Below are positions 16,622 to 44,785 of a stretch of 64,000 nucleotides of DNA, in pieces. The stretch covers positions 3,136,057 to 3,200,056 of the forward strand of contig NZ_LT732529.1 of the NCBI RefSeq assembly GCF_900156865.1, given 5' to 3'. Every line of letters begins with the position of its first letter. Within the stretch, counting starts at the first letter, position 1. The stretch comes from Litchfieldia sinesaloumensis (lineage in GTDB: Bacteria > Bacillota > Bacilli > Bacillales > Bacillaceae_L). The translations under genes were made by a program, and so were the position numbers. The notes beneath the pieces are model-generated. The model had not been told where the DNA came from and did not search any database. It saw only the letters and a program-made list of their open reading frames with translations.

Positions 16622-16776
16622 CTATAACAGCTTGACCTTTCAGTCCACTTTCTTTACCTATTATAATTCAAACAAACGATTGATTAAATTATCATTTCAT
16701 CTACATGACCGATCTAGTCCATTAAACAAACGATTGATTGAAACTAAGGAATTCACAATTCGAGCGATCAGTACAG
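16622..16776. repeat. Dual-palindrome intergenic repeat, copy A
   Basis: First of three copies of a roughly 155-bp element: the mark CTATAACAG at 16622, box 1 (AAACAAACGATTGATT) at 16670, box 2 (AAACAAACGATTGATTGAAA) at 16724 and a GTACAG mark at 16771. Offsets of 54 and 47 bases are identical in the other copies (27355 and 44632). The boxes approach the palindrome TTCAAACAAACG/CGTTTGTTTGAA. Nothing else is recognised between 16565 and 16941. Confidence 0.8.
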
Positions 16777-16941
16777 ATTTCATGAAATCAAATTTTTGGT
16801 ATTCTACTAAAATATACTACTATTCTTTTATTACCTTAATTTAATAGCTTTGTCACACTACTTAATTGTCCTGTAATAGCAGGATAATATTAAACCATTA
16901 TGATTAAAGATATAAATTAATCATCTTAGGAGTTAAACACC

Positions 16942-17037
16942 ATGAAAAAACTAAAATCGATTATTTGTTTATTTCGTAGGTACCATAAATTCGATTATTA
17001 CAGTGGGACATGTATTAATTGTGGTAAGAAAAGATAA
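16942..17037 (+). CDS. 31-residue protein with a Cys-x2-Cys knuckle
   Basis: An ATG at 16942 follows AGGAG with ten bases between. The product is Lys/Arg-rich (MKKLKSIICLFRRYHK) and ends YSGTCINCGKKR, a single zinc-knuckle-like half site. A stem of seven base pairs follows 11 bases after the stop. It lies about 200 bases downstream of repeat copy A. It could be a real microprotein or chance; the ribosome site and terminator favour a gene. Confidence 0.45.
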   Translation: MKKLKSIICLFRRYHKFDYYSGTCINCGKKR

Positions 17038-17048
17038 CGTTCGTGTTT

Positions 17049-17080
17049 AGGTGGGAATGGTTGTTATTACATCCCCACCT
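17049..17080 (+). terminator. Hairpin after the 31-residue gene
   Basis: AGGTGGG at 17049 pairs with CCCACCT ending at 17080, followed by ATCTTT. It overlaps the stop codon of the opposite VOC gene, so it may serve both strands. Confidence 0.5.
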
Positions 17081-17465
17081 ATCTTTCATATATCTCCAAC
17101 GGCAAATCATCCGGATCTTTTAAAAAGGTGAACTTCTTCCCCGTTACCTCATCTACACGTATATCTTCTAACTCTATACCCTTCTCTGTTAGCTCACTCA
17201 CTGCTTCTTTTATATCATCTACCTCAAAGGCTAAATGTCGAAGCCCTGTTGCCTCAGGATAACTTAGTCTTTTCGGTGACTCTGGAAATGAGAACAACTC
17301 AATCTGATAGGTATCCCCAACGGCTAAGTCGAGTTTGTACGAATTGCGGTCTGCACGAAACGTCTCATTGACTATTGTAAACCCCAGCTTATTCACATAA
17401 AAATCTTTAGATCTCTGATAGTCACTACAAATAATAGCAACATGATGGATACGATTAATCTTCAT
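17079..17465 (-). CDS. gloA2: VOC-family metalloprotein, YaeR/GloA2-like
   Basis: The 128-residue protein has the two beta-alpha-beta-beta-beta modules of the glyoxalase I/bleomycin-resistance fold. Visible metal-ligand positions are His in IHHVAII, Glu in QIELFSFPE, His in GLRHLAFEVDD and Glu in LPLEIYE. The combination SFPESPKRLSYPEATGLRHLAF matches the YaeR/SMU1112c subgroup, whose substrate is not settled. The start follows GGAGGT at a good distance. It is a single gene facing the microprotein. Fold confident; reaction not known. Confidence 0.85.
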   Translation of the reverse strand: MKINRIHHVAIICSDYQRSKDFYVNKLGFTIVNETFRADRNSYKLDLAVGDTYQIELFSFPESPKRLSYPEATGLRHLAFEVDDIKEAVSELTEKGIELEDIRVDEVTGKKFTFLKDPDDLPLEIYER

Positions 17466-17504
17466 TGCGACCTCCTACATCAACAGTTTTCTAAGAATGA
17501 CAAA

Positions 17505-17530
17505 ATGACTGGTAGCTTAGTACCAGTCAT
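17505..17530 (-). terminator. Hairpin downstream of the permease gene
   Basis: ATGACTGGTA and TACCAGTCAT form a perfect 10-bp stem with a six-base loop. On the minus strand it is followed by TTTTG, so it probably ends the ABC transporter transcript after the REP palindrome at 17641. Confidence 0.65.
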
Positions 17531-17640
17531 CGAACAACCCTTACTATATTATACATTATATACCTGCTGACAAAACCAAACGCTTCTCCGCTTCCTCAAC
17601 CAGATAGACTGGAACATACTTATCCAATTTCCTTTAATTA

Positions 17641-17675
17641 GGGAAACAGAAGAACCGTCCCCCTGTTTCTGTCCC
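17641..17675 (+). repeat. REP-like palindrome (GAACCGTCCC family)
   Basis: GGGAAACAG and CTGTTTCTGTCCC flank the core AAGAACCGTCCCC, giving a hairpin. It lies two bases after the permease stop. Relatives are at 26036, 27290, 37044 and 41384. Confidence 0.75.
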
Positions 17676-17677
17676 AC

Positions 17678-18841
17678 TTATTTCCCAGCCCTATTCTTAT
17701 TATAAATATCAAACCCTACTGCAAGCAGGAGCACAAGTCCTTTAATCGCTTGTTGCCAGTCGATTCCTACACCGATTAGGGACATCCCGTTGTTCATGAT
17801 TCCCATTACGAGTCCACCGACGATTGCCCCTATGACTGTACCAACTCCTCCAGCCATAGATGCACCTCCGATAAATACAGATGCGATGGCATCAAGTTCT
17901 AGCATGTTACCGGCTGCAGGTGTTGCAGAATTCAAACGCGAAGCAAACATTAATCCAGCTAATGCCGCGAGCACTCCATTGTTCACGAATACCCAGAACA
18001 CCACTCGCTTTGTTTTAATTCCCGATAGATCCGCCGCCTTCTGGTTTCCTCCAGTTGCGTAAATATGGCGACCCATCACTGTGTTTTTCATAACAAAGGT
18101 GTAAATCACAATTAGAATTAAGACGATAATTAACACCATTGGAATTCCTTTATTTAATGCCAATTGGTAGGCAAACCAGTTAATAACTACTAGTAGTAAA
18201 GCAAGCTTCGTAACAGAAAGCCATAACGGACTAACCTCAACGCTATAGGTAAGCTGCTTTTTCCGGTTTCTGAATTCCATGTATACTAAAACTAGGGATA
18301 GAATCACAGATAAAATCATTGTTAGAATATGAAAGTCTCCTGATCCAATTGCCGGCAAGAAACCTCCACTTAGCATGCCAAATGACTCTGGAAATGGTGC
18401 AAGTGATTTTCCATCTAAAAGATATAGTGTTAACCCTCTGAAAATTAACATACTTGCTAACGTAACAATAAAGGAAGGGATTCCTACATATGCTACCCAA
18501 AAGCCTTGCCAAATTCCGATTAACGCACCAACTATAAGTGATAGAATAATAGCTAACCATACTGGCATCCCATGATTAATCATCAGTACTCCGGCAATGG
18601 CTCCGACGATTGCCACAACGGAACCAACGGATAAATCAATATTACCGGTGATAATGACTAAAACCATTCCAATCGCCAAGACCAATATAAAACCATTCTG
18701 TAAAATTAAGTTCGTCAGGTTTAGCGAACTAAATGAGATTCCGTCCGTGAGGATCCAAAACAATCCAGCAATGAACACTAGTGCGATGATCATCCCATAT
18801 TCACGGACATTATTACGAAATAAATTAATTACTGTTTCCAT
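17678..18841 (-). CDS. mmsB: Monosaccharide ABC transporter, permease subunit
   Basis: The 387-residue protein has about ten membrane helices of the BPD_transp_2 family, with the loop [22 protein letters not shown] that is typical of ribose, xylose and multiple-sugar permeases. Its start overlaps the end of the ATP-binding gene by 13 bases, so the two are translationally coupled. It belongs to the MmsB/GguB/XylH group that moves pentoses and hexoses. The transporter would need two copies of this subunit. Substrate specificity cannot be read from the sequence. Confidence 0.92.
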
Positions 18842-20376
18842 GGTTTATCCCCTCCTGTTCCCGTCATATAACGCATCACACTCTCTTGATTCGCCATATC
18901 ACGCTCTAGCTCGCCTGTTATTCGTCCCTCATTCATCACATAAATACGGTCTGATAGCCCCAGTACTTCTGGTAGCTCAGATGAGATGACGAGTACTCCC
19001 ATTCCTTCAGCCGCTAATTCATGAATAAGTGTATAAATCTCATATTTCGCTCCTACGTCAATTCCACGTGTAGGTTCATCTAAAATCAAGATGTCCGGCT
19101 CTGTAAAAATCCACTTACTAAGCACAATTTTTTGTTGATTCCCCCCACTTAAGTTCCCAGCAAGCTGGGCGAGTGTTGGTGTTTTGATATTTAATCGTTC
19201 CCGTAAATGCTGTGCTTCCTGGTGCTCTTTGTTCTCATCAATAACCGCGCTCGTGGAAATTCGCTTAAGGTTTGCAAGGGTGATATTCCGTTTGATATCG
19301 TCGATTAGATTTAATCCATATGTTTTCCGGTCCTCTGATACATAAGCAATTCCATGCGCAATCGCCTCACTCACGGTATTAACTTGGATTTCCTCGCCAT
19401 CCTTATAAAGCAATCCGGTAATCTTTTTGCCGTAGGTTTTACCAAAAATACTCATCGCAAGCTCGGTTCGGCCTGCTCCCATTAAGCCTGCTAGCCCAAC
19501 TATTTCCCCACGACAAATATGAAGATTCACATTATCAATGACTTTTCGGTCGCGCTGCAGTGGATGATAGACATTCCAGTTCTCCACTTCAAAAATCGTC
19601 TCCCCAATATTCGGCACACGCTCTGGAAAACGACTTGTCAACTCACGTCCAACCATCCCTTTAATAATCCGATCCTCGGACGCTTTTTCATCCTTCACTT
19701 TGAACGTTTCGATGGTTTGCCCATCTCGTAAAATCGTAATATTATCAGAAATTCTCGTAACTTCATTGAGCTTATGAGAAATAAGAATGGAGGTAATTCC
19801 TTGCTCTTTTAAATCAAGGAGGAGTTTCAATAGGTTCTCACTATCTTTTTCATTCAGCGCTGCTGTTGGTTCATCAAGAATTAGTAGCTTTACATTTTTA
19901 GAAAGTGCTTTTGCAATTTCAACGAGCTGCTGTTTACCCACGCCAATATTCATAACAGCCGTGTTGGGTGACTCTTGTAAACCGACTTGTCCTAAAAGCT
20001 TTTTCGCTTCCAAAAACGTATCCTGCCACTTAATAATTTGATTCGATTGCCGTTCATTTCCTAAAAAGATATTCTCCGCAATCGACAAAAACGGGCTTAA
20101 CGCTAATTCCTGATGAATAATAACGATACCTAGTTGCTCACTTTGTTTAATGTCTTTAAAATCACATTCTGCTCCATCAAAATAAATACTGCCCTCATAG
20201 GTTCCACTCGGATAAACACCACTTAATACCTTCATTAAAGTTGATTTACCAGCACCATTTTCACCAACGAGTGCGTGAATTTCTCCCTTTTCAACCTGCA
20301 GATTAACGTTGTCTAGTGCTTTTACACCAGGGAATGTCTTTGTGATATTTCTCATTTCTAAAATATAGTCTGGCAT
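18829..20376 (-). CDS. mmsA: Monosaccharide ABC transporter, fused ATP-binding subunit
   Basis: Two ABC cassettes are fused in 515 residues. The first has Walker [10 protein letters not shown] and Walker [12 protein letters not shown]; the second has the usual degenerate Walker A ([10 protein letters not shown]), signature LSGGNQQK and Walker [12 protein letters not shown]. This is the standard arrangement of the RbsA/XylG/MmsA family, in which the first site does most of the hydrolysis. The gene stands between the binding-protein and permease genes. A 13-bp stem lies in the gap before it. Confidence 0.94.
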
Positions 20377-20401
20377 ACCCTCACCACCTCGTTATCATAA
20401 C

Positions 20402-20435
20402 GATTTAGTGGTGACTTATTGATCACCACTAAATC
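20402..20435 (-). promoter_or_regulatory. Intergenic hairpin between binding-protein and ATPase genes
   Basis: GATTTAGTGGTGA and TCACCACTAAATC form a perfect 13-bp stem with an eight-base loop and no T run. Such stems after a binding-protein gene usually stabilise its message and lower expression of the downstream genes; that role is inferred here. Confidence 0.65.
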
Positions 20436-20443
20436 AAGAATGC

Positions 20444-21529
20444 TTATTTTATATCGTCTTCTGTGTAGTACCCGCTATCAATCAACAATTCTTTATAATT
20501 ATCAATATCAACTGAAACTGGCTCAACTAAGTATGAAGGAACAACCTTTTGACCATTGTCATATGTTTCAGTATCATTCACTTCTGCTTCTTCACCAGAT
20601 TCAATCGCTTTAATCATCTTAACAACTACAGCTGCAAGATCACGTGTATCTTTGAATACCGTTTGCGTTTGTTCGCCAGCAATGATTGATTTAATTGAAG
20701 CTGACTCTGCATCCTGACCAGTCACAACTGGAAGTGGTAGATTACTAGAACCGTAGCCAACGCCTTTTAACGCTTGAATAACTCCACGGCTGATTCCGTC
20801 ATAAGGAGATAGGACTGCATCTACCTTTTCACCACTTGAATATGCCTTACTTAAAATGTTTTCCATTCTTGATTTTGCCGTATTTCCATCCCAACGCATC
20901 GTAGCTCCTTGTTCAAATTTTGTTTGACCACTTTGAACAACTAGCTTTCCACTATCGATATGTGGTTGAAGAACTGACATCGCGCCATCCCAGAAGAAAT
21001 AGGCATTATTGTCATCTGGTGAACCACCAAATAATTCGATATTAAACGGTCCAGCCTCTTCCTTCAGGTTTAGTGCCTCTTCAATATAAGACGCCTGCAA
21101 GACACCTACTTGGAAGTTATCGAAAGTCGCATAATAACTCACATTTGGTGTTTCCATAATCAAGCGGTCATATGCGATAACCTCAATATCTTGCTCAGCA
21201 GCTTTTGCTAGTACATTTGTTAATGCCGTACCATCAATCGATGCCACAACAAGGATTTCTGCACCTTTTACAATCATATTTTCAATCTGTTCGATTTGCT
21301 TATCCACATCATCTTCGGCATACTGCAAGTCCGTTTTGTAGCCTAGTTCCTCTAATTGCTTCACAATATTATTACCGTCATCAACCCAACGCTGTGAAGA
21401 CTTCGTAGGCATTGCAATCCCAATTAATGCATCCTCCGAACCTGACCCTGATGATTTGTCATTGCCACTACAAGCGACCAATGCAAAAAATAAACCAATA
21501 ACCACTACCAACAAACCTAACTTCTTCAT
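20444..21529 (-). CDS. chvE: Multiple-monosaccharide-binding lipoprotein (ChvE-like)
   Basis: The start is placed at MKKLGLLVV because GGGG lies eight bases upstream; an ATG 18 bases earlier is poorly placed. The signal ends in lipobox LVAC. The body is a Peripla_BP_4 fold with [17 protein letters not shown] and [19 protein letters not shown], motifs typical of ChvE/GguE. It captures sugars outside the membrane and delivers them to the MmsA/MmsB complex encoded just downstream. It is likely controlled by the AraC-type regulator encoded upstream across a repeat region. Confidence 0.92.
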
Positions 21530-21644
21530 AATTGTAACCCCTTTCATTTCTTTATTATCTGGCTGTATTTAAAGTATCATCTTCCCTATTAAGAAAGCTT
21601 TACAGAAATTTAAACGAATTTTATAAAAATTTAACATAAATAAG

Positions 21645-21830
21645 AAAAGCGCAAGGCGCCCGCTAATACGGAACATCCTCGAAAATGCTTAGCATTATCT
21701 TCGTACGATGATGATGCTGTCGAAGCGTTCCTTGTCCTGTGCAAGTCAAGCTTAAGACGACCCCAACCTTCCGAAGCGTTTGGCTAGACCAGAGAGCCGA
21801 TGGCGCCTGGAGCTAGATATCGAAAAATAC
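21645..21830. repeat. Bacillaceae intergenic repeat with GGCGCC ends
   Basis: The stretch starts GCGCAAGGCGCC and ends GGCGCCTGGAGCTAGAT, two marks known to me from dispersed non-coding repeats of Bacillaceae genomes. It is richer in GC than its surroundings, has no credible gene, and lies between the response-regulator terminator and the chvE promoter region. It is a single copy in this window. Confidence 0.55.
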
Positions 21831-21859
21831 GTGAAGAAGCTTATACTTTCTTACCCATT

Positions 21860-21890
21860 AAAAAAGCACCTTCGCAATGAAAGTGCTTGG
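21860..21890 (-). terminator. Terminator after the response-regulator gene
   Basis: On the minus strand AAGCACTTTC and GAAGGTGCTT form a stem with a short loop, followed by TTTTT. Confidence 0.85.
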
Positions 21891-24906: not shown

Positions 24907-24921
24907 TCCAATCTACGAAGT

Positions 24922-25914: not shown

Positions 25915-26035
25915 TTTGAAACCCCTTTCAATAATGAGCATTTTAAAGAATCAATACAAGTATATGCCCATTATAGCGTAACTCTTCCAAAAATTCTCAT
26001 ATATTTGTGAAGGAGGGGGAACGTCGGGGTACGTC

Positions 26036-26056
26036 GGGACGGTTCTTCTGTTCTCC
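26036..26056 (-). repeat. REP-like inverted end, left of the REP transposase
   Basis: GGGACGGTTCTTCTGTTCTCC is the reverse complement, with one mismatch, of the sequence at 27290-27310. It lacks the outer hairpin arm seen in the free copies at 17641, 37044 and 41384. Confidence 0.75.
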
Positions 26057-26137
26057 TAATATTTGGGAGAATCGAAGGGTAGTCCTTGTTCAAAGCTGTT
26101 AACCCTCGCGAACCATGGAACCGTACGCTTTTTTCCT

Positions 26138-26914
26138 TCAAGCCTTAAATACAAGATTCAAAGATATTCCCATGATTCTCGCTAGTTGGCGCATTGATAT
26201 ACCTTTAATTGTTTTTAGCTCCCGTAGTATCTCTTTTCTTTTCTCTCTTGGTAAACTCTTTACGTGCGGTATCTCCATTGTACCTAGTGATTCCTTTATT
26301 TTTTGTCTTGCCTCTTCATCAGTTAATCTTGGAGCATTAACGATTAATTCCAAACACTGATCTTCATTGTTCATTTCATTGAATGCTTTAAACAGTTCTT
26401 GAGCAACTTTCGAATTGGGAGAAAACAACTTTAATAGAAAAGAACTATCCAGTAATCCTTGAGGATAATATGCAAGGCCATAGTAACCAAGACAACTGCT
26501 CCACTTCCAATCATCTGGCTGCATAACTACCCCTGCCTTTACAGGATTCTGATGAATATATCTAACAACCGTACGAAAATAGGCTTGATCTTCGACACAT
26601 TCACTCCTGAACCGATCTTGAAATAAATGGCCTGTCGTTCTGTATTTCCAATTATAATACCCTGCGTAACTCACTCCAATCCGCTTCATTGTAATAGAAA
26701 TACTTTCATCCCCTTCCTTCATTAATAAATGGACATGATTATTCATTAAGCACCATGCATAAATTGTTAATGTGAGTTTCAACTTATACTTTTTTAGAAT
26801 TTCTAAAAACATTCTCCAGTCCTCTTCATCATGGAAGATTTCCTGACGGTTCGCTCCTCTCAACATCAAATGATAGACACCTGTTTTACTTTTTATTCTA
26901 GCTGCACGAGGCAT
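26138..26914 (-). CDS. REP-associated tyrosine transposase (Y1_Tnp, HUH family)
   Basis: The start is placed at MPRAARIK (26914). The HUH motif is HVH in MNNHVHLLM (near 60) and the catalytic Tyr lies in SYAGYYN (near 88), followed by the family's GHLFQDRFRSE and RYIHQNPVKAG. The C-terminal 60 residues add a helix-turn-helix (MRQLARIMGIS), longer than the minimal TnpA_REP. These enzymes nick and rejoin single-stranded DNA at palindromes, usually as domesticated single copies. All catalytic residues are present, so it may be active. A second, broken relative is at 43959. Confidence 0.92.
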   Translation of the reverse strand: MPRAARIKSKTGVYHLMLRGANRQEIFHDEEDWRMFLEILKKYKLKLTLTIYAWCLMNNHVHLLMKEGDESISITMKRIGVSYAGYYNWKYRTTGHLFQDRFRSECVEDQAYFRTVVRYIHQNPVKAGVVMQPDDWKWSSCLGYYGLAYYPQGLLDSSFLLKLFSPNSKVAQELFKAFNEMNNEDQCLELIVNAPRLTDEEARQKIKESLGTMEIPHVKSLPREKRKEILRELKTIKGISMRQLARIMGISLNLVFKA

Positions 26915-27289
26915 TTCACCACCGCCATTCATATAGTTTTTGTTTCTTTTTTACTTGTGCTTTCAGGATTTAGTTCCTGTCTTAACGTAATTTCAAAGGT
27001 TGCTTGTCCTGCTCATGTCCTTATCAAGAGAATCTATATCGAGAGGGAGGAATAGTGAAATTTAGGGAATTAGGAGTGTTGGAAAGAACAGTATTATAAA
27101 CTGAGAGGCTGATTAAAAAGAAGGAAAAAGGCGGATTTGATATTAGTGAAGTTAGTAGCTCTGTATTCATATTCAATTCATACCACAAGATTCCTTCTAT
27201 GACTTTATTAATTTGTTTTAACATTGTATTCAAGAGGATAAAGGTGAAATTAGAGAGGTGAAACTTTTTTATTCTTTTGGCAAAAAATA

Positions 27290-27310
27290 GGAAAACAGAA
27301 GAACCGTCCC
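27290..27310 (+). repeat. REP-like inverted end, right of the REP transposase
   Basis: GGAAAACAGAAGAACCGTCCC, inverted relative to 26036-26056. The outer arm of the hairpin is missing and is replaced by an AT-rich run. Confidence 0.75.
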
Positions 27311-27354
27311 TGATTTTTTATTTTTATTTACCTATACTAGAATACAGAATTAGC

Positions 27355-27509
27355 ACTATAACAGTACTACTCCTAAACTATATTTCCTACCGCAACTAAT
27401 TCAAACAAACGATTGATTGAATCATAGATTCAGCCTCATTATTGTACTTAAGGACTAAACAAGCGTTTGTTTGAAAATGTCGTTTTTAAATTTATGATAA
27501 TTAGTACAG
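27355..27509. repeat. Dual-palindrome intergenic repeat, copy B
   Basis: CTATAACAG at the left, box 1 (AAACAAACGATTGATTGAA) at 27403, box 2 (AAACAAGCGTTTGTTTGAAA) at 27457 and GTACAG at 27504. Box offsets of 54 and 47 bases match copies A and C while the spacers differ. Confidence 0.8.
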
Positions 27510-27742
27510 ATTACCGAACTATTCGTACATTCTATTTTACGATAAATACGAATTCCACTTTTCTTTGGTTAATTACATGTTCATTTAACCGGTAAAAACT
27601 GGACAGCTCCATTGTTTTTTATATCTAAATTGTGAACTTTTTGTCGAATACCAACTGTCAGTTGACAACAGCAATTAAATACCAACTATAGTCTGTTTAC
27701 GATTTTGATCTTTTAGGTTTTACTATGCCTAGAGGTGATTTT

Positions 27743-28096
27743 ATGCGCGAAATTGTTGGACTTAGGATACGGAAGTTACGTAAGAAAAGGAAATGGAGTC
27801 AGAAGGAACTTGCTGAAAGGGTTACGATTTCTAAAACTTACATGGGGATGATTGAACGAGCGGAAGCTGGCAATATTTCATACGATATCCTTACCAAGAT
27901 AGCAACTGCACTAGATGTCACCATAGAAGAATTTGGAAGAAATACCGACCTCATCGAAGAGAATAATGCACATAGATTACTACTCGCAGAATATATGGAC
28001 ATGCTTCAGCAGCTAGATCCTGTCCTTCTTAAGGAACTTATCAAAGTTACACCACATTTATTAGAATCATTTAAATATATTCGGTCAATGAAATAA
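27743..28096 (+). CDS. Xre-family transcriptional regulator
   Basis: The start is placed at MREIVGLRIRK (ATG at 27743) after AGAGGTG; an upstream ATG lacks a site. Residues 5-65 are a Cro/C1 helix-turn-helix (LRKKRKWSQKELAERVTISKT YMGMIERAEAGNIS read in two parts), like SinR/Rok-type small repressors. The C-terminal 50 residues are helical and may dimerise. It is 117 residues, exactly the length of the second Xre gene at 41535, and the two share nearly the same upstream 45 bases. Target genes are unknown. No partner gene is adjacent in the same direction. Confidence 0.85.
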   Translation: MREIVGLRIRKLRKKRKWSQKELAERVTISKTYMGMIERAEAGNISYDILTKIATALDVTIEEFGRNTDLIEENNAHRLLLAEYMDMLQQLDPVLLKELIKVTPHLLESFKYIRSMK

Positions 28097-28257
28097 TAAG
28101 AAGTTAAAAGTTCCAACAACACCATTTCATTGACCTTGCATCACTTGATTATTACATAATCCCACGCTACACCACTACATTCTCAAAGGTACAAACAATG
28201 AGATATAGCTAACAGCCCACTCCACTGTTTAATCCAAGGACTTATAGTAATCTATCC

Positions 28258-29526
28258 TCAATTTTGTAAACCTTGACCTCTGTCCCAACCTGGAATCTGA
28301 ATCGTAATCTCGGTACCAATACCCTCTTCACTAGTCACCTTTATTTTCCCATTGAGTGAATGGATAATCTGCATGCTAACCATCATACCGAGTCCTGTTC
28401 CTTTTTCTTTTAAGGAGTAGTAAGGTGATCCGAGTCGCTTAAGTTGTTTTGGTGTCATGCCTATCCCTTCGTCTTTTATCGTGACTTCGATAAAGCCATC
28501 CTCACTCTGGAAACATGTAATCCAAACTGAACCGCCATTTGGCATGGATTCAACTGCGTTTTTCAAGATGTTAATAAGGGATTGATTTAGTTTTTGTGGA
28601 TTTGCATGAATCCAACAGTTTTCCTGTACATCTAGTTTGATATCAACATTTTGATTAAGCGTGTACCCTTTAATGATGTTAGCGACACGCTGTAGTTGAT
28701 ACCCTACATCAACTTTTTCAATATTTGTAGAAGGGCTACCAAATGATAAAAAGTCATAGATGATTTGATTGGCACGATCCAATTCATCGATTGAAATTTG
28801 GATGTACTGCTTCTTACTCTTAGGCAAATCAGGTTCGTCGAGAAGTTGTAAAAAACCACGGGTAACCTGCATCGGATTTCTAATTTCATGGGCAAACACG
28901 GTTGAAAGCTGGCTAATCAGTCGTAAGCGCTCTGTATCTTGCATCTCTGAACGCAGTCGATGAATATCTCTGATCGTTTCATATAACGTAACGAGGAAAA
29001 AAGTAACCAACGCTACAAACAGTAGGTGAGTCAGTTGTACGCTAAACGTGTCTAGGTCAAATCCACGTAATACAATCGAAAACGTTATTCCAATCGCGCA
29101 ATAGATAACGGAAAGTACCACTGCGATTGCAATTCTTTTCTCTTTCTTTGAAATAACAAATGATCTTTGTATGAACAAGAGAACCGGAAGGAATACAATT
29201 AAAACAAGAACAGTATTATAAAGTCCCACATTCGTGCCTAAATACAAACGGAAAAGCAATATCACAGATGTCAAAATAATCGTTGGTAATATCCCCCCAT
29301 AAAGACTACCAAGGAGTAAAGGTATAATTCGCAAATCCAATTGAACGGCTTTGCCAATATCCACAGGGAAGAGCATACATAGCAGGACAGAAAGTCCCCA
29401 TAGGATGCACATAACTACATTTCGATTTTTCTCGCTTTTGACCTTCTCCGTTATAAACGTAAAGTAAACAAATATAGGGATGACCAAGAGCGTCACCTGT
29501 AATAAAAAGTCTTTTACTATATTCAT
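28258..29526 (-). CDS. Sensor histidine kinase, KinB-like, with 5TM sensor domain
   Basis: The first 190 residues hold about six membrane helices with the LytS-type 5TM signature (DLRIIPLLLGSLYGGILPT). A HisKA domain follows with the phosphoacceptor in FAHEIRNPMQV, then a HATPase domain with NILKNAVESMP, DEGIGM and GTGLGMMVS. Size and layout match KinB of B. subtilis (about 428 residues), which feeds the sporulation phosphorelay. No response regulator gene is adjacent, as is usual for orphan phosphorelay kinases. The input signal cannot be told; assignment to sporulation is by family. Confidence 0.85.
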   Translation of the reverse strand: MNIVKDFLLQVTLLVIPIFVYFTFITEKVKSEKNRNVVMCILWGLSVLLCMLFPVDIGKAVQLDLRIIPLLLGSLYGGILPTIILTSVILLFRLYLGTNVGLYNTVLVLIVFLPVLLFIQRSFVISKKEKRIAIAVVLSVIYCAIGITFSIVLRGFDLDTFSVQLTHLLFVALVTFFLVTLYETIRDIHRLRSEMQDTERLRLISQLSTVFAHEIRNPMQVTRGFLQLLDEPDLPKSKKQYIQISIDELDRANQIIYDFLSFGSPSTNIEKVDVGYQLQRVANIIKGYTLNQNVDIKLDVQENCWIHANPQKLNQSLINILKNAVESMPNGGSVWITCFQSEDGFIEVTIKDEGIGMTPKQLKRLGSPYYSLKEKGTGLGMMVSMQIIHSLNGKIKVTSEEGIGTEITIQIPGWDRGQGLQN

Positions 29527-31260: not shown

Positions 31261-31276
31261 ACCGTGGCTCGTCCCA

Positions 31277-33718: not shown

Positions 33719-33741
33719 AATCAGCATCTGTTCTATTAAAA

Positions 33742-33782
33742 AAAGTGGGTCATTAAGCATATCCTTATGACCCACCTTTTTA
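33742..33782 (+). terminator. Terminator after the L,D-transpeptidase gene
   Basis: AAAGTGGGTCAT and ATGACCCAC form a stem around a 13-base loop and end in CTTTTT. Confidence 0.9.
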
Positions 33783-34001
33783 GGAATATACCAAGGTCTA
33801 CATTAAATATGTTATGATGTTACAAAAAGAAAACTGATAAGAATAAAAGTCTCACAAGCTATTCTATCTACTAGAAGATGAAAAAAGTGCATTTTGAATA
33901 AAAACTAAACTAGCAATTTAATCGGTAATGTTTTACCAAAACAACTCGCAAATATTAAGTCTAGTTACATATGATAAAGCTGAAAAAACAGGGAGAAAAT
34001 C

Positions 34002-37465: not shown

Positions 37466-40400
37466 GTGAGAAGAAGTAAAAAAACTAGGAAAACTCTTTC
37501 GGTATTTTTCGTATTAATTCTTTTATTATCAACGGTAACACCTGCATTTGGAGAAGAAGTAGATGGCTTTGAAAGGATTCATTACAGCGATTTTAACGAC
37601 CTGTGGGGCTTCACTACATTTGCTGCTACCCTTTCGACTAATACAGATGATATTGGAGGGAACACAACTCCAAAGTTACAATTTGGAATCGTTGACCAAA
37701 GTGGTGGACGTGTAGCAACAAAGGAATTTAATTCTCCTGTAAAGGGTTCCCACGCTCTTTTTGAATTTGACTGGTACCCAGGAAAGGTAAATGATAAAGG
37801 CGCTCACATTAATGAAAACGGTGGCGAAATAAGATTCGAAGATAATACAGGAAATACAGTCTTTACATTGAATAATACGAACAATGCTGCACTAACTTAT
37901 TTTGCAGGTAAACAAGCTCCTGCTAACACAGATATTACTGTTCCGGAAGCATGGTATCATGTAAAGGTTAACTTTAATCTTCTTAACAACGTAGTAGAGT
38001 TAAGTCTTGAAAGCCAAGATGGTAAGACTGAAGAATATACCTCTAGTTTAGAAGGTGTAGATTTTGATGGTTCGATTAAAGCAGTTAAATTAGCCGGTGT
38101 TCGAACAGCAGGTAATAACCTCACCTGGACAACCTATCTTGATAATTTCGAAGTCTATCATGTACCTGTTTCAGACAATACACTGATTCGAGTGGATAAA
38201 CTCCCTTATCATCGTGTATACGTGGGTGAAACAACTGAAGAAATCGAATCAATTGGTTTGCCTAAAGAAGTGACAGTAACCCTTGCTGATAACAGCAAAA
38301 TAGATATGCCTGTAAGAAAGTGGGAGACTGTAGGACAAGACTGGAATTCTAACGAGCCTGGTGTATATGAGTTTAAGGGGATTTTAGCTGAGAATGAGAA
38401 AGTCAATAATTCATTTAACAGAGAAGTTACGCAATATGTCTATAATCGTCTTAAGCCTGTTGATCGCCCACAGCAAGTGGAATGGCTTGATCGAGGAGTA
38501 ATTGCTCTTCAATCAGAGGACGGCATATTTATCAGCTGGCGTTTACTTGCAGATGAATATGATAAAGATGTGACATTCAATGTATACCGTAATGGTGAAA
38601 AACTAAATACTAAACCATTATTTGTTACGAACTTTGTTGATTCACAAGGTACTCCTGAAGACAACTATACGGTAGAAACGCTTGTGAATGGTAAGTCCAT
38701 TGAAACAAACGATAAAAGTGTAGCTGAAAAAGAGTATCTCTCGATTCCGTTGCAAAAGCCTGCTGATGGTACAACTGCGACCGGAGACTACACCTACTCT
38801 GCTAATGATGCAAGCGTAGGAGATTTAGACGGTGATGGTGAATATGAAATAATAATCCTATGGCAGCCTTCTAACTCTATGTTTGCCTTAGAAGATGTTA
38901 TCACAGGCCCAACGATTTTTGATGCATACAAATTAGATGGAACGCTCTTATGGCGAATGGATATGGGTCCTAACCTAACATCTGGTCCTCAATATCACCA
39001 ATTTGTTGTTGGGGATATGGATGGGAATGGAAAATCGGAGTTTCTGATTAAAACAGCCGATGGAACAACTGTTTATGGTGCAACAAATGGGGTTTACGAT
39101 CCTAATAAAGTCATTAGCTTAATTGGTGACCCTGAAGCTGATTGGGTAAATGATGGTGGTCACGTTATAGGAGGACCTGAATTAATATCTGTATTCAATG
39201 GTGAAACAGGAGAAGTGATTGATACGATTGATTTTGCATTCCCTGTGGAAAAAGTACCTGGTGACGGAGGGGTATCATGGGGCGATGATTTCTATAACCG
39301 TTCGGACCGTTTCCTTTCTGGATTAGCATATATAAACGGAATTACTCCAAGTGCGATCTATGGTAGAGGTTACTATGAAAGAACAGGCTTTGCTGCTTAT
39401 AGTTTAGTAGATGGTAAGCTTATTGAAGAATGGACGTTTGATTCAGATGAGGCAGGCAGAGGTGCTTCATTAGGTAACCATAACCTTGCAACTGGTGATT
39501 TGGATAACGATGGCTTCGATGAAATCGTAGCTGGTTCCTTGACTCTTGATCATGATGGTACAATTCTTTATGCCATGGATGGAGAAATGGGACGTGTTCA
39601 AGGGTCTCACGGTGATGCCTTACATGTCGGAGCATTTGACCCTGATCGTGAAGGTTTACATGTCTTTGGTGTACATGAAGATTCAGATGTTGCTTCACTA
39701 GAGTATCATGATGGAGCAACCGGAGAAACACTTCAAGCATTTTATGCCTATAAGGATGCAGGACGTGGGGTAGCTGCGAACATCACATCAAAACCAGGTT
39801 ATGAATTCTGGGGAACTGGTGGAGGAACTGTCGAAACAGGTGGCGGTGTCTATAATGTACAAGGGCATGTTGAAGCAAATAGCTTTAGAGATATTGGATT
39901 GCCAGTTAATTTCGTAACGTACTGGGATGGAGATTTATTACATGAATTACTAGATGGTACAACAATCACTAAATATGATGAAACAACTGGTACAGCAAAT
40001 GTGATTAAGGCATTTGAAGGCGTTGTAAGTAATAATGGAACAAAAGCGAACCCGACCTTACAAGCAGATATTCTAGGTGATTGGCGTGAAGAAATCATTT
40101 ACCGAACACCTGACAGCTCAGAGTTACGAATTTTTAGCACAACAATTCCAACTGATTATAGACTATATACATTAATGCATGATTCAGTGTATAGAATGGC
40201 GATTGCATGGCAAAACACAACCTACAATCAGCCTCCACATATTGGCTTCTATCTTGGCGAGGATATTAGGGAAACTGTTCTTGCTGGGGAGCTAGATGGT
40301 GATAAAGTTCAATACCCAACACTGAATGTGGAATTTATGAGAGATACTGTAAACAATGAAATAAGTGGTTCACTAAAAGCAGTATTATCAAATAAATTAA

Positions 40401-40582
40401 AGCAGGCTCAGAAGCATTTAGACAAAGGAAAAGTTAAACAAGCAACCAAGCAAATGGAAGACTTTATCGACCATTTGAATAAAAAGCAATCTCAAACGCA
40501 GGTTGATTTGAAGTTAAAAACGAAGCTGAATTCTTATGCACATAAATTAATTGAGCAATGGAATGAAAGTGCGTCAAATTAG
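37466..40582 (+). CDS. Secreted rhamnogalacturonan lyase, PL11 family, with C-terminal helical domain
   Basis: The GTG start follows AGGAG at 12 bases, further than ideal. Signal peptide: residues 1-29 (ending PAFGEE). Residues 40-235 form a beta-sandwich carbohydrate-binding-like domain, and the PL11 propeller spans about 290-960, with calcium loops GDLDGDGEYE, GDMDGNGKSE and GDLDNDGFDE and the family motif YHQFVVGDMDGNG. The last 65 residues are a Lys-rich helical hairpin (FIMAH-like) that may hold the enzyme at the wall. It cuts the rhamnogalacturonan I backbone of pectin by beta-elimination. The 1,038 residues are about 1.6 times B. subtilis YesW. The sugar-binding lipoprotein is divergent from it. 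Confidence 0.9.
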   Translation: MRRSKKTRKTLSVFFVLILLLSTVTPAFGEEVDGFERIHYSDFNDLWGFTTFAATLSTNTDDIGGNTTPKLQFGIVDQSGGRVATKEFNSPVKGSHALFEFDWYPGKVNDKGAHINENGGEIRFEDNTGNTVFTLNNTNNAALTYFAGKQAPANTDITVPEAWYHVKVNFNLLNNVVELSLESQDGKTEEYTSSLEGVDFDGSIKAVKLAGVRTAGNNLTWTTYLDNFEVYHVPVSDNTLIRVDKLPYHRVYVGETTEEIESIGLPKEVTVTLADNSKIDMPVRKWETVGQDWNSNEPGVYEFKGILAENEKVNNSFNREVTQYVYNRLKPVDRPQQVEWLDRGVIALQSEDGIFISWRLLADEYDKDVTFNVYRNGEKLNTKPLFVTNFVDSQGTPEDNYTVETLVNGKSIETNDKSVAEKEYLSIPLQKPADGTTATGDYTYSANDASVGDLDGDGEYEIIILWQPSNSMFALEDVITGPTIFDAYKLDGTLLWRMDMGPNLTSGPQYHQFVVGDMDGNGKSEFLIKTADGTTVYGATNGVYDPNKVISLIGDPEADWVNDGGHVIGGPELISVFNGETGEVIDTIDFAFPVEKVPGDGGVSWGDDFYNRSDRFLSGLAYINGITPSAIYGRGYYERTGFAAYSLVDGKLIEEWTFDSDEAGRGASLGNHNLATGDLDNDGFDEIVAGSLTLDHDGTILYAMDGEMGRVQGSHGDALHVGAFDPDREGLHVFGVHEDSDVASLEYHDGATGETLQAFYAYKDAGRGVAANITSKPGYEFWGTGGGTVETGGGVYNVQGHVEANSFRDIGLPVNFVTYWDGDLLHELLDGTTITKYDETTGTANVIKAFEGVVSNNGTKANPTLQADILGDWREEIIYRTPDSSELRIFSTTIPTDYRLYTLMHDSVYRMAIAWQNTTYNQPPHIGFYLGEDIRETVLAGELDGDKVQYPTLNVEFMRDTVNNEISGSLKAVLSNKLKQAQKHLDKGKVKQATKQMEDFIDHLNKKQSQTQVDLKLKTKLNSYAHKLIEQWNESASN

Positions 40583-40609
40583 GTAAAGATTTCTAACTGA
40601 AATACTGGA

Positions 40610-40638
40610 GAAAAGGCTGACCTTATGTCAGTCTTTTC
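40610..40638 (+). terminator. Terminator after the lyase gene
   Basis: GAAAAGGCTGAC and GTCAGTCTTTTC form a 12-bp stem with a five-base loop. Confidence 0.9.
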
Positions 40639-40735
40639 TTATTATAGATATCTCAAATATCCCAACTTGATTACTACGTCTAACCTAAGTAAGGAAAGCA
40701 ATAATTATCGAAAGACAAACGCCTCTAAAACCAGC

Positions 40736-41302
40736 CTACTCTACATCATCTGTTTCATCAAATATCTCAATCTTTATCTGAAAACCTTCATACGACATAA
40801 GCATCTTGCCAAGTTGGTCCCACGTGAATGGCTTCCCGTCAATAATAACAAGCGGAATCCTATCAGAAGCTTTATCACATTCTAAAAGCCCTATAATTTG
40901 ATTAGTAGCAAGTGTATTGTACCTCTGGCCACTAGGGAAAACTCCTTCTTTCACGTATTGTTTTCTCGTGCCCCTACGAGCCTTTGCGATCAATTTGTTA
41001 AGTAGTTCTTGCTGGTCGCAATTTAACTCACCATGGACAGCAAATCTATAACCATACTCTTTGTTTTCATTCGCTTCTAAAAAGATTCCCATTGGGCCTA
41101 ACCGCTTCTCCACATAAAAAGTACGGCTAGTTCCCTCATAATCTTTCAAAGAAAAACTATCAATCATCAGCTCTACATCTACACCTAACTCCTGTGCCAT
41201 GAGTTCATTATAACAATCAGAACACAAGTGCAAACTATTGTCTTTAGAAATGCTTAGCACATGCCTCGTTTTATTAGACTCACAATGCTCACACCTACTC
41301 AT
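40736..41302 (-). CDS. Conserved protein with N-terminal zinc ribbon
   Basis: The start is set at MSRCEHCESN (41302) after GGGTGAT; the longer reading adds 12 residues without a site. Two Cys pairs (CEHC near 4 and CSDC near 26) form a zinc ribbon. The remaining 160 residues include FYVEKRLGPMGIFLEANE and a Gln/Arg-rich helix, with a final acidic tail (IFDETDDVE). I recall related Bacillus proteins of unknown function but no verified name. It is upstream of and divergent from the Xre-comK cluster. Confidence 0.6.
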   Translation of the reverse strand: MSRCEHCESNKTRHVLSISKDNSLHLCSDCYNELMAQELGVDVELMIDSFSLKDYEGTSRTFYVEKRLGPMGIFLEANENKEYGYRFAVHGELNCDQQELLNKLIAKARRGTRKQYVKEGVFPSGQRYNTLATNQIIGLLECDKASDRIPLVIIDGKPFTWDQLGKMLMSYEGFQIKIEIFDETDDVE

Positions 41303-41383
41303 ACAATCACCCACATCATTTTTCTTCAATTCTATCATAAATGGTTAATACATAAGGACGGATTTCATGTTCTACTAAAAAGG

Positions 41384-41414
41384 AGGAGAACAGCGGAACC
41401 GTCCCCCTGTTTTC
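41384..41414 (+). repeat. REP-like palindrome (GAACCGTCCC family)
   Basis: GGAGAACAG and CTGTTTTCC flank the core CGGAACCGTCCCC. It lies in the gap between the zinc-ribbon gene and the Xre gene. Confidence 0.75.
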
Positions 41415-41534
41415 CCCTGTTTCAAAATTATTTTCCAGAATTCAAACTATCAGTTTGAATTACAAAAGACTCAAACAACCAGCGTGTTTCAATATTATTA
41501 TTTCTAGGATTTACTAATTCTAGAGGTGATTTTT

Positions 41535-41888
41535 ATGATAGATAACTCGGTTGTTGGTCAATACATTCGAAGGTTTCGTAAAAGGAAAGGGCTCAGTCAA
41601 GTAGAGCTAGCAAAATCACTAGACATAACCTCAAAATATTTAAGCGAAATTGAGCGAGGCATAAAACAACCTTCACTACGTCTGTTGGAGAGAATTTCGG
41701 TGGAACTTAACTTAAATCCTGGAGAACTCTATGGGGATTATCAGAAAATTAGCTTATTCAAACAACCTGATTTAATGATTAAGCTTGATGAAATCTATCA
41801 AGACGTCCCAAAGGAATTCCATGAAGACATTTTAATCATGAATAGAAAAATGGTAAAACTTATTAATTCCGAATCCAAAAAGAATTAA
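41535..41888 (+). CDS. Xre-family transcriptional regulator next to comK
   Basis: Start at MIDNSVVGQYIRRFRKRKG (ATG at 41535) after AGAGGTG; a GTG nine bases earlier overlaps that site and is not used. A Cro/C1 helix-turn-helix spans about residues 8-65 (SQVELAKSLDITSKYLSEIE). The C-terminal 45 residues are helical. It is 117 residues, like the Xre gene at 27743, with a near-identical leader. It is followed 115 bases later by comK on the same strand, which makes control of competence an obvious but unproven idea. Confidence 0.85.
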   Translation: MIDNSVVGQYIRRFRKRKGLSQVELAKSLDITSKYLSEIERGIKQPSLRLLERISVELNLNPGELYGDYQKISLFKQPDLMIKLDEIYQDVPKEFHEDILIMNRKMVKLINSESKKN

Positions 41889-42003
41889 TATATACAACTT
41901 CTATCAGGTCTTCCTCCATTATTGATTCACTTCTAAACTAACCAATTGTTTATCGATTGATGAAAATCCCCGCATTACCACCACATAAAAAGGAGCGAAC
42001 CAC

Positions 42004-42498
42004 ATGAAAGACATTCATCTTATCTATGAAGTAAACCCCAGAACCCAAGCCATTCTCGCCACAAGGGAAATTGAGTATTCTTCGATTGTCATCGAGGAGC
42101 ATCGAACTCTTTACGTCAGGCAAACACCACTCCAAATTATAAAAGCTGCCTGTCTCGTAGGCGGGGCTACCTATGATGGCAGACGCAAGGCCGTCACCCA
42201 TTTAACTGGTGCAATCCAAAAGGTACCTATCCCTATTAACCCTCGGAGACATATCTTCGCATTTCCCACTCATTCACCAACTGCGTTTGAGTGCAACTGG
42301 ATATTCTACCACCATATCAAAACTATCATACCTTCCCAACAAAGAAACCATACAACCAAATCCATTATTACATTCAAAAATAACCTAGAACTACCCATGA
42401 ACGAATCTCATTATCTGTTAGAAAAACAATATACGCGCACCACTATGTGCATCTTACAATATGCACAACAAGAAAACTGCAAGCGCATACACTACTAG
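42004..42498 (+). CDS. comK: Competence transcription factor ComK homologue, short form
   Basis: The ATG follows AAGGAGCG. YEVNPRTQAI, IIEEHRTLYV-like VIEEHRTLYVRQTPLQIIK, GGATYDGRRKAV and FAFPTHSP match ComK, the master activator of DNA uptake genes that binds AT-rich K-boxes in pairs. At 164 residues it is about 28 shorter than B. subtilis ComK (192), and it ends soon after EKQYTRTTMCILQY. The FMLYPK region that MecA uses to send ComK to ClpCP is absent. So this may be a proteolysis-resistant or second-type ComK. It lies between an Xre regulator and a DnaD-like protein gene. Confidence 0.88.
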   Translation: MKDIHLIYEVNPRTQAILATREIEYSSIVIEEHRTLYVRQTPLQIIKAACLVGGATYDGRRKAVTHLTGAIQKVPIPINPRRHIFAFPTHSPTAFECNWIFYHHIKTIIPSQQRNHTTKSIITFKNNLELPMNESHYLLEKQYTRTTMCILQYAQQENCKRIHY

Positions 42499-42574
42499 GA
42501 ATGTAAATACAGTGGGACGTTGATCTCCCTCCTTCCCAATCCCCACAAATTAAATTAAAAAGGATGAAGACATA

Positions 42575-43654
42575 ATGAATGCAAATATTCTACTGAATGA
42601 TAGGCCGTTACTTATTCCCCCTACTCTTGCCGTTTTGCTTGGTACAAATGAAAGTATTATCCTTCAACAAATCCACTATTGGCTCAAACGCAGCAAACAA
42701 TTCAAACTTGGTCGAAAATGGGTATATCTCACCTATGATCAGTTGGCGGAACAAATCCCGTTCATCTCAAAAAGCACAATTCGAAGAACCATTTTAAAAC
42801 TAGAAAAACAAGGCTACCTATTACCACAAAACTTCAACAAACTGAAAATAGACAAAACGAAGTGGTATTCCATTCATTATGAAAATCTAGAAGAACTAAT
42901 AAAAGAGCGAATTGATGAAAATCAAACAATTGGTACGAAAGACCTTTTCCCGTCTGATATAGTTGAAGAAATGGTGTGCTCAGAACAGGCAGACGATATA
43001 GCCAATGTGGACAGTCCAGCTGTTCAAATTGAACAGTCGAGCGATTCAACTTGGCATGTGGAGGAACTCAATTTGAACACACCAATACCAGAGACTACTA
43101 CAGAGATTACTCCAAAGACTACATCAGAGACTTCTTCTTCAAAAGAAACTAGAAAGGACGAAGTAAAAGAAGACCCATTTCGTTTCTTCGAGCAAAATGG
43201 CTTTGGCACAATCGGTAGCTTTCTAGAAGATAAAATTAAGACGTGGTGCAATGATGTATCAGACGAACTCGTCATCGAGGCTATGAAACTAGCTGTAGAA
43301 AACTCGTCAAAACGCTGGAATTACGTAGAAGCAGTCCTACGTGATTGGGTGGATAAAGGGTATCAAACTTCGGATGAAGTATATACTGCACGCCTTGCAT
43401 ATAAGCAAAAAGCGAACCACCATCCAAGAAAAAAGCCAATCCGACAGGAACTCCTACCTGACTGGATTTACACACAAGACAAAGACGATGAGCCTAATCA
43501 AACTCCTAGCTCAAAGGAGAAAAAACGGTTAATTGATGAGAGATTGAAAAAGTACAGGGAAGGAAGCTCCACCGAGGTAGAACCCGTACACAATTTTAGT
43601 TTTGAAGAGAAAAAACGACTCTTTGAGGAGCGGTTGAAGAAAAGTAAGGTATAA
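42575..43654 (+). CDS. DnaD-domain replication-type protein
   Basis: Residues 15-100 are a winged helix (YDQLAEQIPFISKSTIRRTI) and residues 205-290 a DnaD/DnaB_2 domain (FFEQNGFGTIGSFLEDKIK to YVEAVLRDWVDKG), joined by a Thr/Ser-rich linker. This is the layout of DnaD-like helicase loaders of phages and integrating elements. The C-terminus has a duplicated short helix (EKKRLIDERLKK, EKKRLFEERLKK). It starts after AAGGATGAAG. Together with comK and the Xre gene it suggests a gained segment; no integrase is present. Confidence 0.82.
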   Translation: MNANILLNDRPLLIPPTLAVLLGTNESIILQQIHYWLKRSKQFKLGRKWVYLTYDQLAEQIPFISKSTIRRTILKLEKQGYLLPQNFNKLKIDKTKWYSIHYENLEELIKERIDENQTIGTKDLFPSDIVEEMVCSEQADDIANVDSPAVQIEQSSDSTWHVEELNLNTPIPETTTEITPKTTSETSSSKETRKDEVKEDPFRFFEQNGFGTIGSFLEDKIKTWCNDVSDELVIEAMKLAVENSSKRWNYVEAVLRDWVDKGYQTSDEVYTARLAYKQKANHHPRKKPIRQELLPDWIYTQDKDDEPNQTPSSKEKKRLIDERLKKYREGSSTEVEPVHNFSFEEKKRLFEERLKKSKV

Positions 43655-43845
43655 AGTTAATAAACAAAATTGGAGATCTACCTTTAATTGTAAAACTTTA
43701 TCATAGAGGGGACAGGCCAACAAGAAGTATTACCTAAAATAAAATTTTAGAGTCTCCCCCCTCACTCCTTATTTCCACTGTTCAATTAGGTTGTTTTCTA
43801 TGGAATCGACATGAGGACATTGCTAACTAAATGAATCTTAGTAAG

Positions 43846-43900
43846 GGGGCTAGGGTGTGAGAAAGCTCACAGGGGCATAGTTTGTGTGTTCCACCCAGAA
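43846..43900 (+). pseudogene. Remnant of an L,D-transpeptidase 5' end
   Basis: GTAAGGGGGCTAGGGTGTGA and the following 30 bases match the ribosome site and first codons of the gene at 32006 (GTAAGGGGGCGAGTGCGTGA, then AAGTTTACAGGGG against AAGCTCACAGGGG). The similarity ends after about 55 bases. It is a short duplicated scrap with no reading frame. Confidence 0.45.
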
Positions 43901-43958
43901 GTCAGCTCAATACGATTACCGCTCCTTAACTCCTCGTTTTCTCCATTCAACACGGTTA

Positions 43959-44532
43959 TTATCGTGAGAGCGACTCAGAGACATGGCTTCTCATACAGCT
44001 TCTTGAGATAGGTCGGCTTCTCCCCTTAAGTGCTGGGAGTGGTTCTTGAAAATAGGAAAGAGTTTTCTGTGGAGATACATGATGATTTTCAACTAGATTA
44101 AGATAGGCTGGGTAACTACTCCATTCATAAGACGATAGATTTTTCACCATCTTCGCCTCGAGGGGATTACGATGTATGTACCGACCTACTTCAAGAAAGT
44201 ACTGATCTGTCTCGTTTAACTTAGCTCCATAACGACCTTGGAAAACATGACCATCATAATGATATTTTTTATTAAAATAAATCGCATACCTAAAGTGCAT
44301 TTCTTTCACAATTAAATGAATATGAATTCGTCGTTTGTACTTGAAGATGAACATGCTTAGTCATTAAGCAGTAGGAATGAAGTGTAAAAGGATACATGGA
44401 GCGCAAAAACTCGAGGATTTCTAGATAAGTAAGATAATCATCACGTTGATTAAAAAGTGAAGACCTTCGGTTTCCCCTTGCAGTGATATGATACATAGCA
44501 ACTGGAAACCAAATTCTGTGCTTTCGTTTCAT
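43959..44532 (-). pseudogene. Frameshifted REP-associated tyrosine transposase
   Basis: The N-terminal part runs in one frame from an ATG after AGGAGGAATTG (44532) through the HUH motif (LMTKHVHLQ). The C-terminal part continues in another frame from about 44335 with YFNKKYHYDGHVFQGRYG and RYIHRNPLEAK. Both pieces belong to one Y1 transposase, so one frameshift lies near 44335. It is related to, but not a recent copy of, the intact gene at 26138. Repeat copy C lies about 100 bases upstream of its start. Confidence 0.85.
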
Positions 44533-44631
44533 TCAATTCCTCCTATGTATCTATTTCCGACTTCAGTTTCTTGAATAGTAGGAAAATGTCAATTAACATC
44601 CAAAATTGTCGGAATTATGATTTAATAGATA

Positions 44632-44785
44632 GTATAACAGTTTGACCTATAACCCCTTTTACTAAACAATACAAATCCAAACAAACGATTGATTGAATCG
44701 CTAGTCCCATGATGCCATTAGGCTAGAATACTAAACAAACATTTGTTTGAAATCGATATTTTCACAAGACACCCGACTAATACAG
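44632..44785. repeat. Dual-palindrome intergenic repeat, copy C
   Basis: GTATAACAG at the left, box 1 (AAACAAACGATTGATTGAA) at 44679, box 2 (AAACAAACATTTGTTTGAAA) at 44733 and ATACAG at 44780. The 54- and 47-base offsets equal those of copies A and B. Confidence 0.8.

Follow-up and report, generated by a model that had tools for sequence, protein, structure and literature searches.

What a short repeat with two palindromic boxes might do when it recurs between genes with its spacing intact is the question raised by a 64,000-nt stretch of the Litchfieldia sinesaloumensis genome (contig NZ_LT732529.1 of assembly GCF_900156865.1, positions 3,136,057 to 3,200,056; the whole stretch is called the window below). 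A preliminary description of this DNA reported three intergenic copies of a 155-bp repeat and called it undescribed. On that point we differ: the boxes are very probably RefZ-binding motifs (RBMs), so that the box is most likely of a known kind, and the repeat most likely marks a position on the chromosome and does not look like the operator of the next gene. The basis for this is the motif, its pairing and spacing, the position of the sites on either side of the origin, the presence of refZ, and the co-occurrence of box and refZ.

The three two-box copies are present in the window as claimed. Each consists of two 22-bp near-palindromes (TTCAAWCAAACGNTTGWTTGAA), whose 18-mer cores start at 16670 and 16724, 27403 and 27457, and 44679 and 44733, a step of 54 bp in 3 of 3 copies; the box centers, at 16677.5/16731.5, 27410.5/27464.5, and 44686.5/44740.5, are likewise 54 bp apart in each copy. 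The window contains six core matches with ≤3 mismatches compared to 0.17 expected, and none of 100 shuffles reached six. To call box 2 the complement of box 1, as had been done, is too simple; it is not a plain complement, and A and T vary at box position 6. In every copy, the distance from the core start of box 2 to the start of the GTACAG-like right mark is exactly 47 bp, in agreement with the earlier claim, and the center of this TAGTACAG-like mark is +41 bp from the center of box 2. A left mark ending in ACAG is also found in every copy, but its distance to box 1 is not constant: it ends 40, 39, and 39 bp ahead of the box-1 core in copies 1, 2, and 3, copy 1 having one extra base. The reported divergence of the spacers is real, for the three copies have little in common between the boxes while the 54 bp are kept. 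When whole copies were compared by BLAST to their own genome, the remaining matches were mostly box sized, and phage records gave no match to window positions 26900 to 28300.

A genome-wide search for further copies had been set beforehand as a test. The paired pattern was found at 10 loci in the L. sinesaloumensis genome and in 36 of 198 related genomes (core offsets of 40 to 70 bp were allowed); the reversed pattern gave none. Individual core matches are similarly confined: all 21 matches with ≤2 mismatches to the 18-mer fall at 3.047 to 3.181 or 4.022 to 4.365 Mb of the 4.55-Mb contig. The dnaA gene of this genome is at 3.577 Mb, and the 10 pair loci are at −530, −529, −424, −414, −396, +445, +471, +512, +654, and +724 kb from it, which gives one cluster per arm, from −530 to −396 kb and from +445 to +724 kb.

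The same placement was found in other genomes. Twelve chromosome-size contigs with a located dnaA were treated as circles; on these, all 39 pair loci (core offsets of 46 to 70, some of the loci counted having 66- to 70-bp steps) are at 0.11 to 0.39 of the arm length from dnaA. Three weak hits whose second core is poor (G151:940936, G141:1489876, and G201:6296338) were left out of this count; if they are added, 42 of 42 pair loci are within 0.5 of the arm. Pair loci are on both arms in 6 of the 12 genomes; Neobacillus drentensis, for example, has two, at +622 and −637 kb from dnaA, and Rossellomorea sp. AcN35-11 has two, at −409 and +500 kb. Draft genomes, in which most sites were not placeable, were also left out of the 39; those sites that could be placed (in G002, G041, G203, and G206) are between −632 and +369 kb, except for the weak hits G002:C2:814306 and G203:C2:2036607. 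Because the reversed control of the pair pattern gave 6 hits in 9 genomes in one scan (and none in 10 genomes in another), single weak pair hits may have occurred by chance, and because the genomes are related and some loci are neighbors, we give no single P value for position. Chromosome position is nonetheless the deciding clue to the identity of the boxes.

Among the matches listed, the groups bearing pairs are Fredinandcohnia (the genus group of the window's genome), Rossellomorea, Neobacillus, Cytobacillus, Pseudalkalibacillus, Salinibacillus, and others. Six loci outside the Bacillales (L119, L138, L151, L162, L164, and L211), two of which contained pairs at the score applied, were left out of the counts of gene context, composition, pairing, and spacing. 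Composition over 127 pairs bears out the 22-bp dyad. The distance between the boxes, which the preliminary description expected to be constant, is nearly fixed within a genus but differs between genera, typical values being 54, 55, 56, 57, and 59 bp. With steps of 50 to 60 bp counted and genera assigned manually, the spacing is 54 bp in 27 of 28 pairs of the Fredinandcohnia group, 56 bp in 18 of 21 pairs of Rossellomorea and its kin and in 16 of 19 of Neobacillus, 59 bp in all 8 of Cytobacillus depressus, and 57 bp in all 7 of Cytobacillus sp. S13-E01 and one relative. Since the spacing ranges were preset (51 to 61 bp in the scan pattern, 50 to 60 bp in the count), only the peaks within genera count as evidence. 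In two sets of orthologous loci of the Fredinandcohnia group, most box positions are conserved while the spacers change more. Arrays reach seven boxes, some with 66- to 68-bp steps between pairs, and steps of 30 to 33 bp also occur. Arrays of six or seven boxes with regular steps were seen in C. depressus (L129, 3725 to 4103, steps of 59 and 67 bp alternating), Salinibacillus (L134, 5495 to 5847, steps of 54 to 68 bp), and Bacillus massilionigeriensis (L199, 6387 to 6649, steps of 52 to 54 bp).

Pairs of palindromic sites at kept positions on both arms recall a known system. In those portions of the published accounts that we consulted (PMC6657595; PMC11154705), RefZ (YttP) belongs to the TetR family, is produced at an early stage of sporulation and, in Bacillus subtilis, binds five nearly palindromic RBMs, two per arm and one near oriC; the arm RBMs delimit the part of the chromosome that the forespore captures, and across Bacillus they keep their positions with respect to oriC. 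According to the same portions of one account, RefZ and the RBMs tune the position of the polar FtsZ ring in B. subtilis, and the way in which RefZ affects FtsZ has yet to be settled (PMC6657595). The genome studied here encodes RefZ (G000:C3:2380281-2380862), with a score of 265.9 bits to the family model NF037937 septum_RefZ (cutoff, 180). Its best relative of solved structure is 6mj1_A, YttP/RefZ (E = 6.8e-64), and the two proteins agree fully in the stretch ISYYF, in which the published recognition-helix residues Y43 and Y44 lie.

RefZ scored above the cutoff in 176 of the 198 relatives and is present in 36 of 36 genomes bearing pairs. A strict box, the exact 16-mer AAWCAAACGTTTGWTT, is found in 126 of the 176 RefZ-positive genomes versus 1 of the 22 RefZ-negative ones (Fisher's P = 8e-10, calculated on related genomes), and its reversed control is found in 2 of 198. 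The association holds within families f14, f21, and f35, in which 9 of 11 RefZ-positive and 0 of 7 RefZ-negative genomes have the box: f14 has three RefZ-positive genomes, with 2, 4, and 2 boxes, and three RefZ-negative ones, all without a box, and in f21 and f35 alike, boxes occur in 3 of 4 RefZ-positive and 0 of 2 RefZ-negative genomes. The evidence favors selection on paired sites for a TetR-type protein, as the preliminary description proposed, and RefZ would be the protein that binds these exact boxes. Another candidate, a TetR-family gene other than refZ that lies 133 bp downstream of the copy at +445 kb (L062), was rejected: it is not RefZ, its weak hits being below the cutoff, and a relative stands beside a site at only one other locus.

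Two genomes with a RefZ like that of B. subtilis connect these boxes to the published layout. G058 has four both-strand matches, all single boxes and two per arm, at +325, +414, −505, and −456 kb (22 further one-strand matches were left uncounted), which matches the two RBMs per arm given for B. subtilis in the portions consulted (PMC6657595). G152, whose RefZ resembles 6MJ1, has five both-strand matches, at +68, +311, +380, −450, and −331 kb, with the CAAACGTTT core or its complement in the three at +311, +380, and −450 kb. In both genomes, a single box (L330 in G058, L333 in G152) appears to sit where one and the same coding sequence begins, in contrast to the pairs, most of which are between genes.

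Several findings weigh against assigning the boxes to RefZ. The identity with the B. subtilis RBM depends on the single boxes in G058 and G152 and not on the letters of the B. subtilis RBMs themselves. The strict 16-mer is absent from 50 of the 176 RefZ-positive genomes, G152 included, and the box was found in 0 of 2 RefZ-positive genomes of family f25 and in 2 of 5 of f17. In the L. sinesaloumensis genome, no box with ≤3 mismatches is within 390 kb of dnaA, whereas B. subtilis has one RBM near oriC; furthermore, 12 of the 24 matches with exactly three mismatches are outside both zones, compared to five reversed-control matches. The single boxes of other genomes mostly have no placement relative to dnaA. 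One of them, a perfect palindromic box at 2.37 Mb of a complete genome (G116:C1:2365723, L302), is possibly far from oriC, and no dnaA was found in the 400 kb fetched at the ends of that contig. Finally, the related genomes share ancestry, and tests among them are not independent.

If the boxes were instead operators of another TetR- or LacI-type repressor acting on the neighboring genes, with the DNA looped between the two boxes, then palindromes of 22 bp that are centered on CG and stand in pairs about five helical turns apart are what one might see, and the TetR-family gene 133 bp from L062 could be one such target. The gene context is different. Only 2 of 107 site loci are inside an open reading frame (ORF) of at least 100 codons, although such ORFs cover 81% of the loci. 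Of the 97 sites with two flanking genes, 31 are in convergent gaps versus 40 of 321 background gaps of at least 100 bp in the same loci (P = 2e-5), and divergent gaps are underused (15 of 97 versus 87 of 321; P = 0.02). No neighbor gene is common to the sites; the largest neighbor family adjoins 9 of 107 sites, mostly in Rossellomorea, and the neighbors form small, mostly lineage-specific groups. The placement of the sites is therefore unlike that of operators, and no shared target gene stands behind them. Limitation to the zones flanking the origin and near absence from RefZ-negative genomes also argue against such a repressor, which we consider unlikely. The statement that each copy precedes a plus-strand gene is weak: copy 1 is between converging genes, on the plus strand at 15698 to 16564 and on the minus strand at 17079 to 17465, with only a 31-codon plus-strand frame between them.

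The window has a Y1 (IS200-like) transposase gene at 26138 to 26932 and a Y1 relative split over two pieces at 44091 to 44532, each within about 0.5 kb of a candidate RBM pair. The preliminary description had pointed to transposase genes near two copies; they are indeed near copies 2 and 3 but look incidental, relatives being found in 3 of 119 other loci searched. A small mobile repeat of the MITE (miniature inverted-repeat transposable element) or REP (repetitive extragenic palindrome) type, spread between genes by these transposases, would agree with several copies in one genus sharing a layout of about 155 bp with outer marks, with the arrays of six or seven boxes, and with the intact and broken transposase genes nearby. 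Against it, mainly the boxes are shared while spacers differ and spacing is fixed, the spread is limited to 11 to 39% of arm length, and Y1 relatives are rare elsewhere; we regard it as very unlikely.

The proposal that selection acts on an RNA or DNA structure, as a structured RNA or a DNA cruciform in which box 1 pairs with box 2 or each box with itself, proved to be poorly supported, and of the explanations considered we find it the hardest to believe. Each box is palindromic, and copy 2 folds somewhat better than its shuffles (z = −2.48, plus strand), but copy 1 folds no better (z = 0.01 and 0.59), and over both strands z ranges inconsistently among copies from 0.59 to −2.48. The suggested check for covariation did not bear out a stem: position 6, where A and T vary most freely, has no excess pairing in four comparisons, while pairing at position 3 exceeds that of shuffles in three of four, inside each of the two boxes and across the outer arms (0.688 versus 0.487 shuffled), which lineage differences may explain. 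An Rfam scan of the window gave no match at the boxes, only a cyclic di-GMP-I riboswitch far from them.

Taking the boxes as candidate RBMs, we asked what else is conserved around them. Over 26 columns, the spacers contain 5.10 bits of information when anchored at their midpoint, 3.38 bits when anchored at the box edge, and 0.54 bits when shuffled. At the midpoint is a dyad, approximately AACCYTTG..CAAGGRTT, a consensus pooled over both strands and hence symmetric by construction; unpooled, its dyad score is 0.330 versus 0.254 (standard deviation, 0.0125) in shuffles. The dyad is strong in Rossellomorea (0.467 versus 0.255, 0 of 500 shuffles) and Neobacillus (0.389 versus 0.256, 0 of 500 shuffles). 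Because it is not significant in the Fredinandcohnia group (0.271 versus 0.253, 114 of 500 shuffles), we do not claim it for the window copies. That group has outer marks: among its 31 sites with 54-bp spacing, 10 have TAGTACAG with ≤1 mismatch at +41 and 5 have it at +30 relative to box 2, positions about one helical turn apart, and 3 have the exact TAGTACAG at −50 relative to box 1; by chance, the flanks as a whole should contain about 0.13 matches per locus. Tentatively, these letters could belong to a composite boundary complex in which two RefZ sites, kept at the spacing typical of the genus, surround the midpoint dyad (Rossellomorea and Neobacillus) or are accompanied by TAGTACAG outer marks (Fredinandcohnia group), with a second DNA-binding protein on the midpoint or the marks. 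If this were true, capture at the spore septum would use an assembled multiprotein landmark not present in B. subtilis and other species with single RBMs.

In the mechanism that we consider most likely, RefZ dimers would load side by side on two RBMs about five helical turns apart. Such paired loading would make a stronger local landmark, which in sporulating cells would hold the polar Z ring to a defined place on the chromosome; what leads from RefZ to FtsZ in this scheme is taken over from the B. subtilis publications. Since the spacing is fixed, we infer that loading would be cooperative, the pairing serving assembly. From genus to genus, spacings are up to about half a helical turn apart, which speaks for complexes tuned by lineage and against a single phase common to all.

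The RefZ system itself is known, but the paired or arrayed architecture with its genus-typical spacing, midpoint dyad, and outer marks appears to be new. We found no description of paired RBMs in the portions of the RefZ literature consulted, although the primary RBM paper (Miller et al. 2016), which was outside this comparison, might describe them; a literature search with the box strings found no paper. It is already known from RefZ and its sites that a cell can read chromosome position to place a septum. Through the motif, boundary marks on either side of the origin are extended to Fredinandcohnia, Rossellomorea, Neobacillus, Cytobacillus, and others, and the captured region may become predictable from sequence in spore formers not open to manipulation. 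In addition, the doubled or arrayed sites, which occur naturally at fixed distances typical of each genus, offer a ready series for tests of RefZ cooperativity and spacing.

Table 1. Boxes and outer marks of the three window copies (window positions; offsets in bp from the center of the adjoining box)
Feature	Positions	Strand	Remark	Basis
Copy 1 left outer mark	16623..16630	.	TATAACAG (2 mismatches to TAGTACAG), center −51 from box 1; exact TAGTACAG at −50 in three other loci of the genus group	sequence
Copy 1 box 1	16667..16688	.	candidate RefZ-binding motif	
Copy 1 box 2	16721..16742	.	candidate RefZ-binding motif, 54 bp from box 1	
Copy 1 right outer mark	16769..16776	.	CAGTACAG, +41 from box 2	
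Copy 2 left outer mark	27357..27364	.	TATAACAG, center −50	sequence
Copy 2 box 1	27400..27421	.	candidate RefZ-binding motif	
Copy 2 box 2	27454..27475	.	candidate RefZ-binding motif	
Copy 2 right outer mark	27502..27509	.	TAGTACAG, +41	
Copy 3 left outer mark	44633..44640	.	TATAACAG, center −50	sequence
Copy 3 box 1	44676..44697	.	candidate RefZ-binding motif	
Copy 3 box 2	44730..44751	.	candidate RefZ-binding motif	
Copy 3 right outer mark	44778..44785	.	TAATACAG, +41	

The window has other features of note. The cyclic di-GMP-I riboswitch (10066 to 10152; 58.9 bits, cutoff 35) is about 380 bp before an ORF of 883 amino acids (10533 to 13184) that has no Pfam match at 1e-5. A rhamnogalacturonan lyase of family 11 (1,038 amino acids, with a C-terminal FIMAH domain) is encoded at 37466 to 40582, and a 200-amino-acid protein with three domains of unknown function, DUF7685, DUF7686, and DUF7713, at 40736 to 41338. 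Two transposon genes are found between 49128 and 54984 in the same zone, one for an IstB-type ATPase (49128 to 49853) and one with matches to an integrase core and a Mu-transposase C-terminal domain (53386 to 54984).

Among known systems, the sites bound by SlmA and Noc are widely distributed outside the terminus. They differ from the present boxes, which are confined to two origin-flanking zones, and have other proteins and other motifs. The likeness is that in each case a DNA-binding protein that regulates FtsZ assembly recognizes specific sequences on the chromosome, and SlmA, too, is of the TetR family, according to the portions consulted (PMC6657595). The bcr1 repeat of the Bacillus cereus group is alike in its length of about 150 bp (147 or 167 bp) and in its occurrence in Bacillus, as given in the part of its description consulted (PMC2267715). 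A reference title credits bcr1 with the characteristics of a mobile element, whereas the repeat described here is restricted in position and is conserved chiefly in its boxes; the two are set apart by description, not by letters. The closest system is that of the B. subtilis RBMs, which, in the portions consulted (PMC6657595), are similarly near-palindromic, flank oriC on both arms, and occur with RefZ in the same genome. Of the five RBMs given there for B. subtilis, one is near oriC (PMC6657595), whereas none was found near oriC here. Unlike those of B. subtilis, the sites described here are paired or arrayed with a genus-typical spacing, are greater in number (10 pair loci), are mostly intergenic, and in some genera have extra conserved letters between or outside the boxes.

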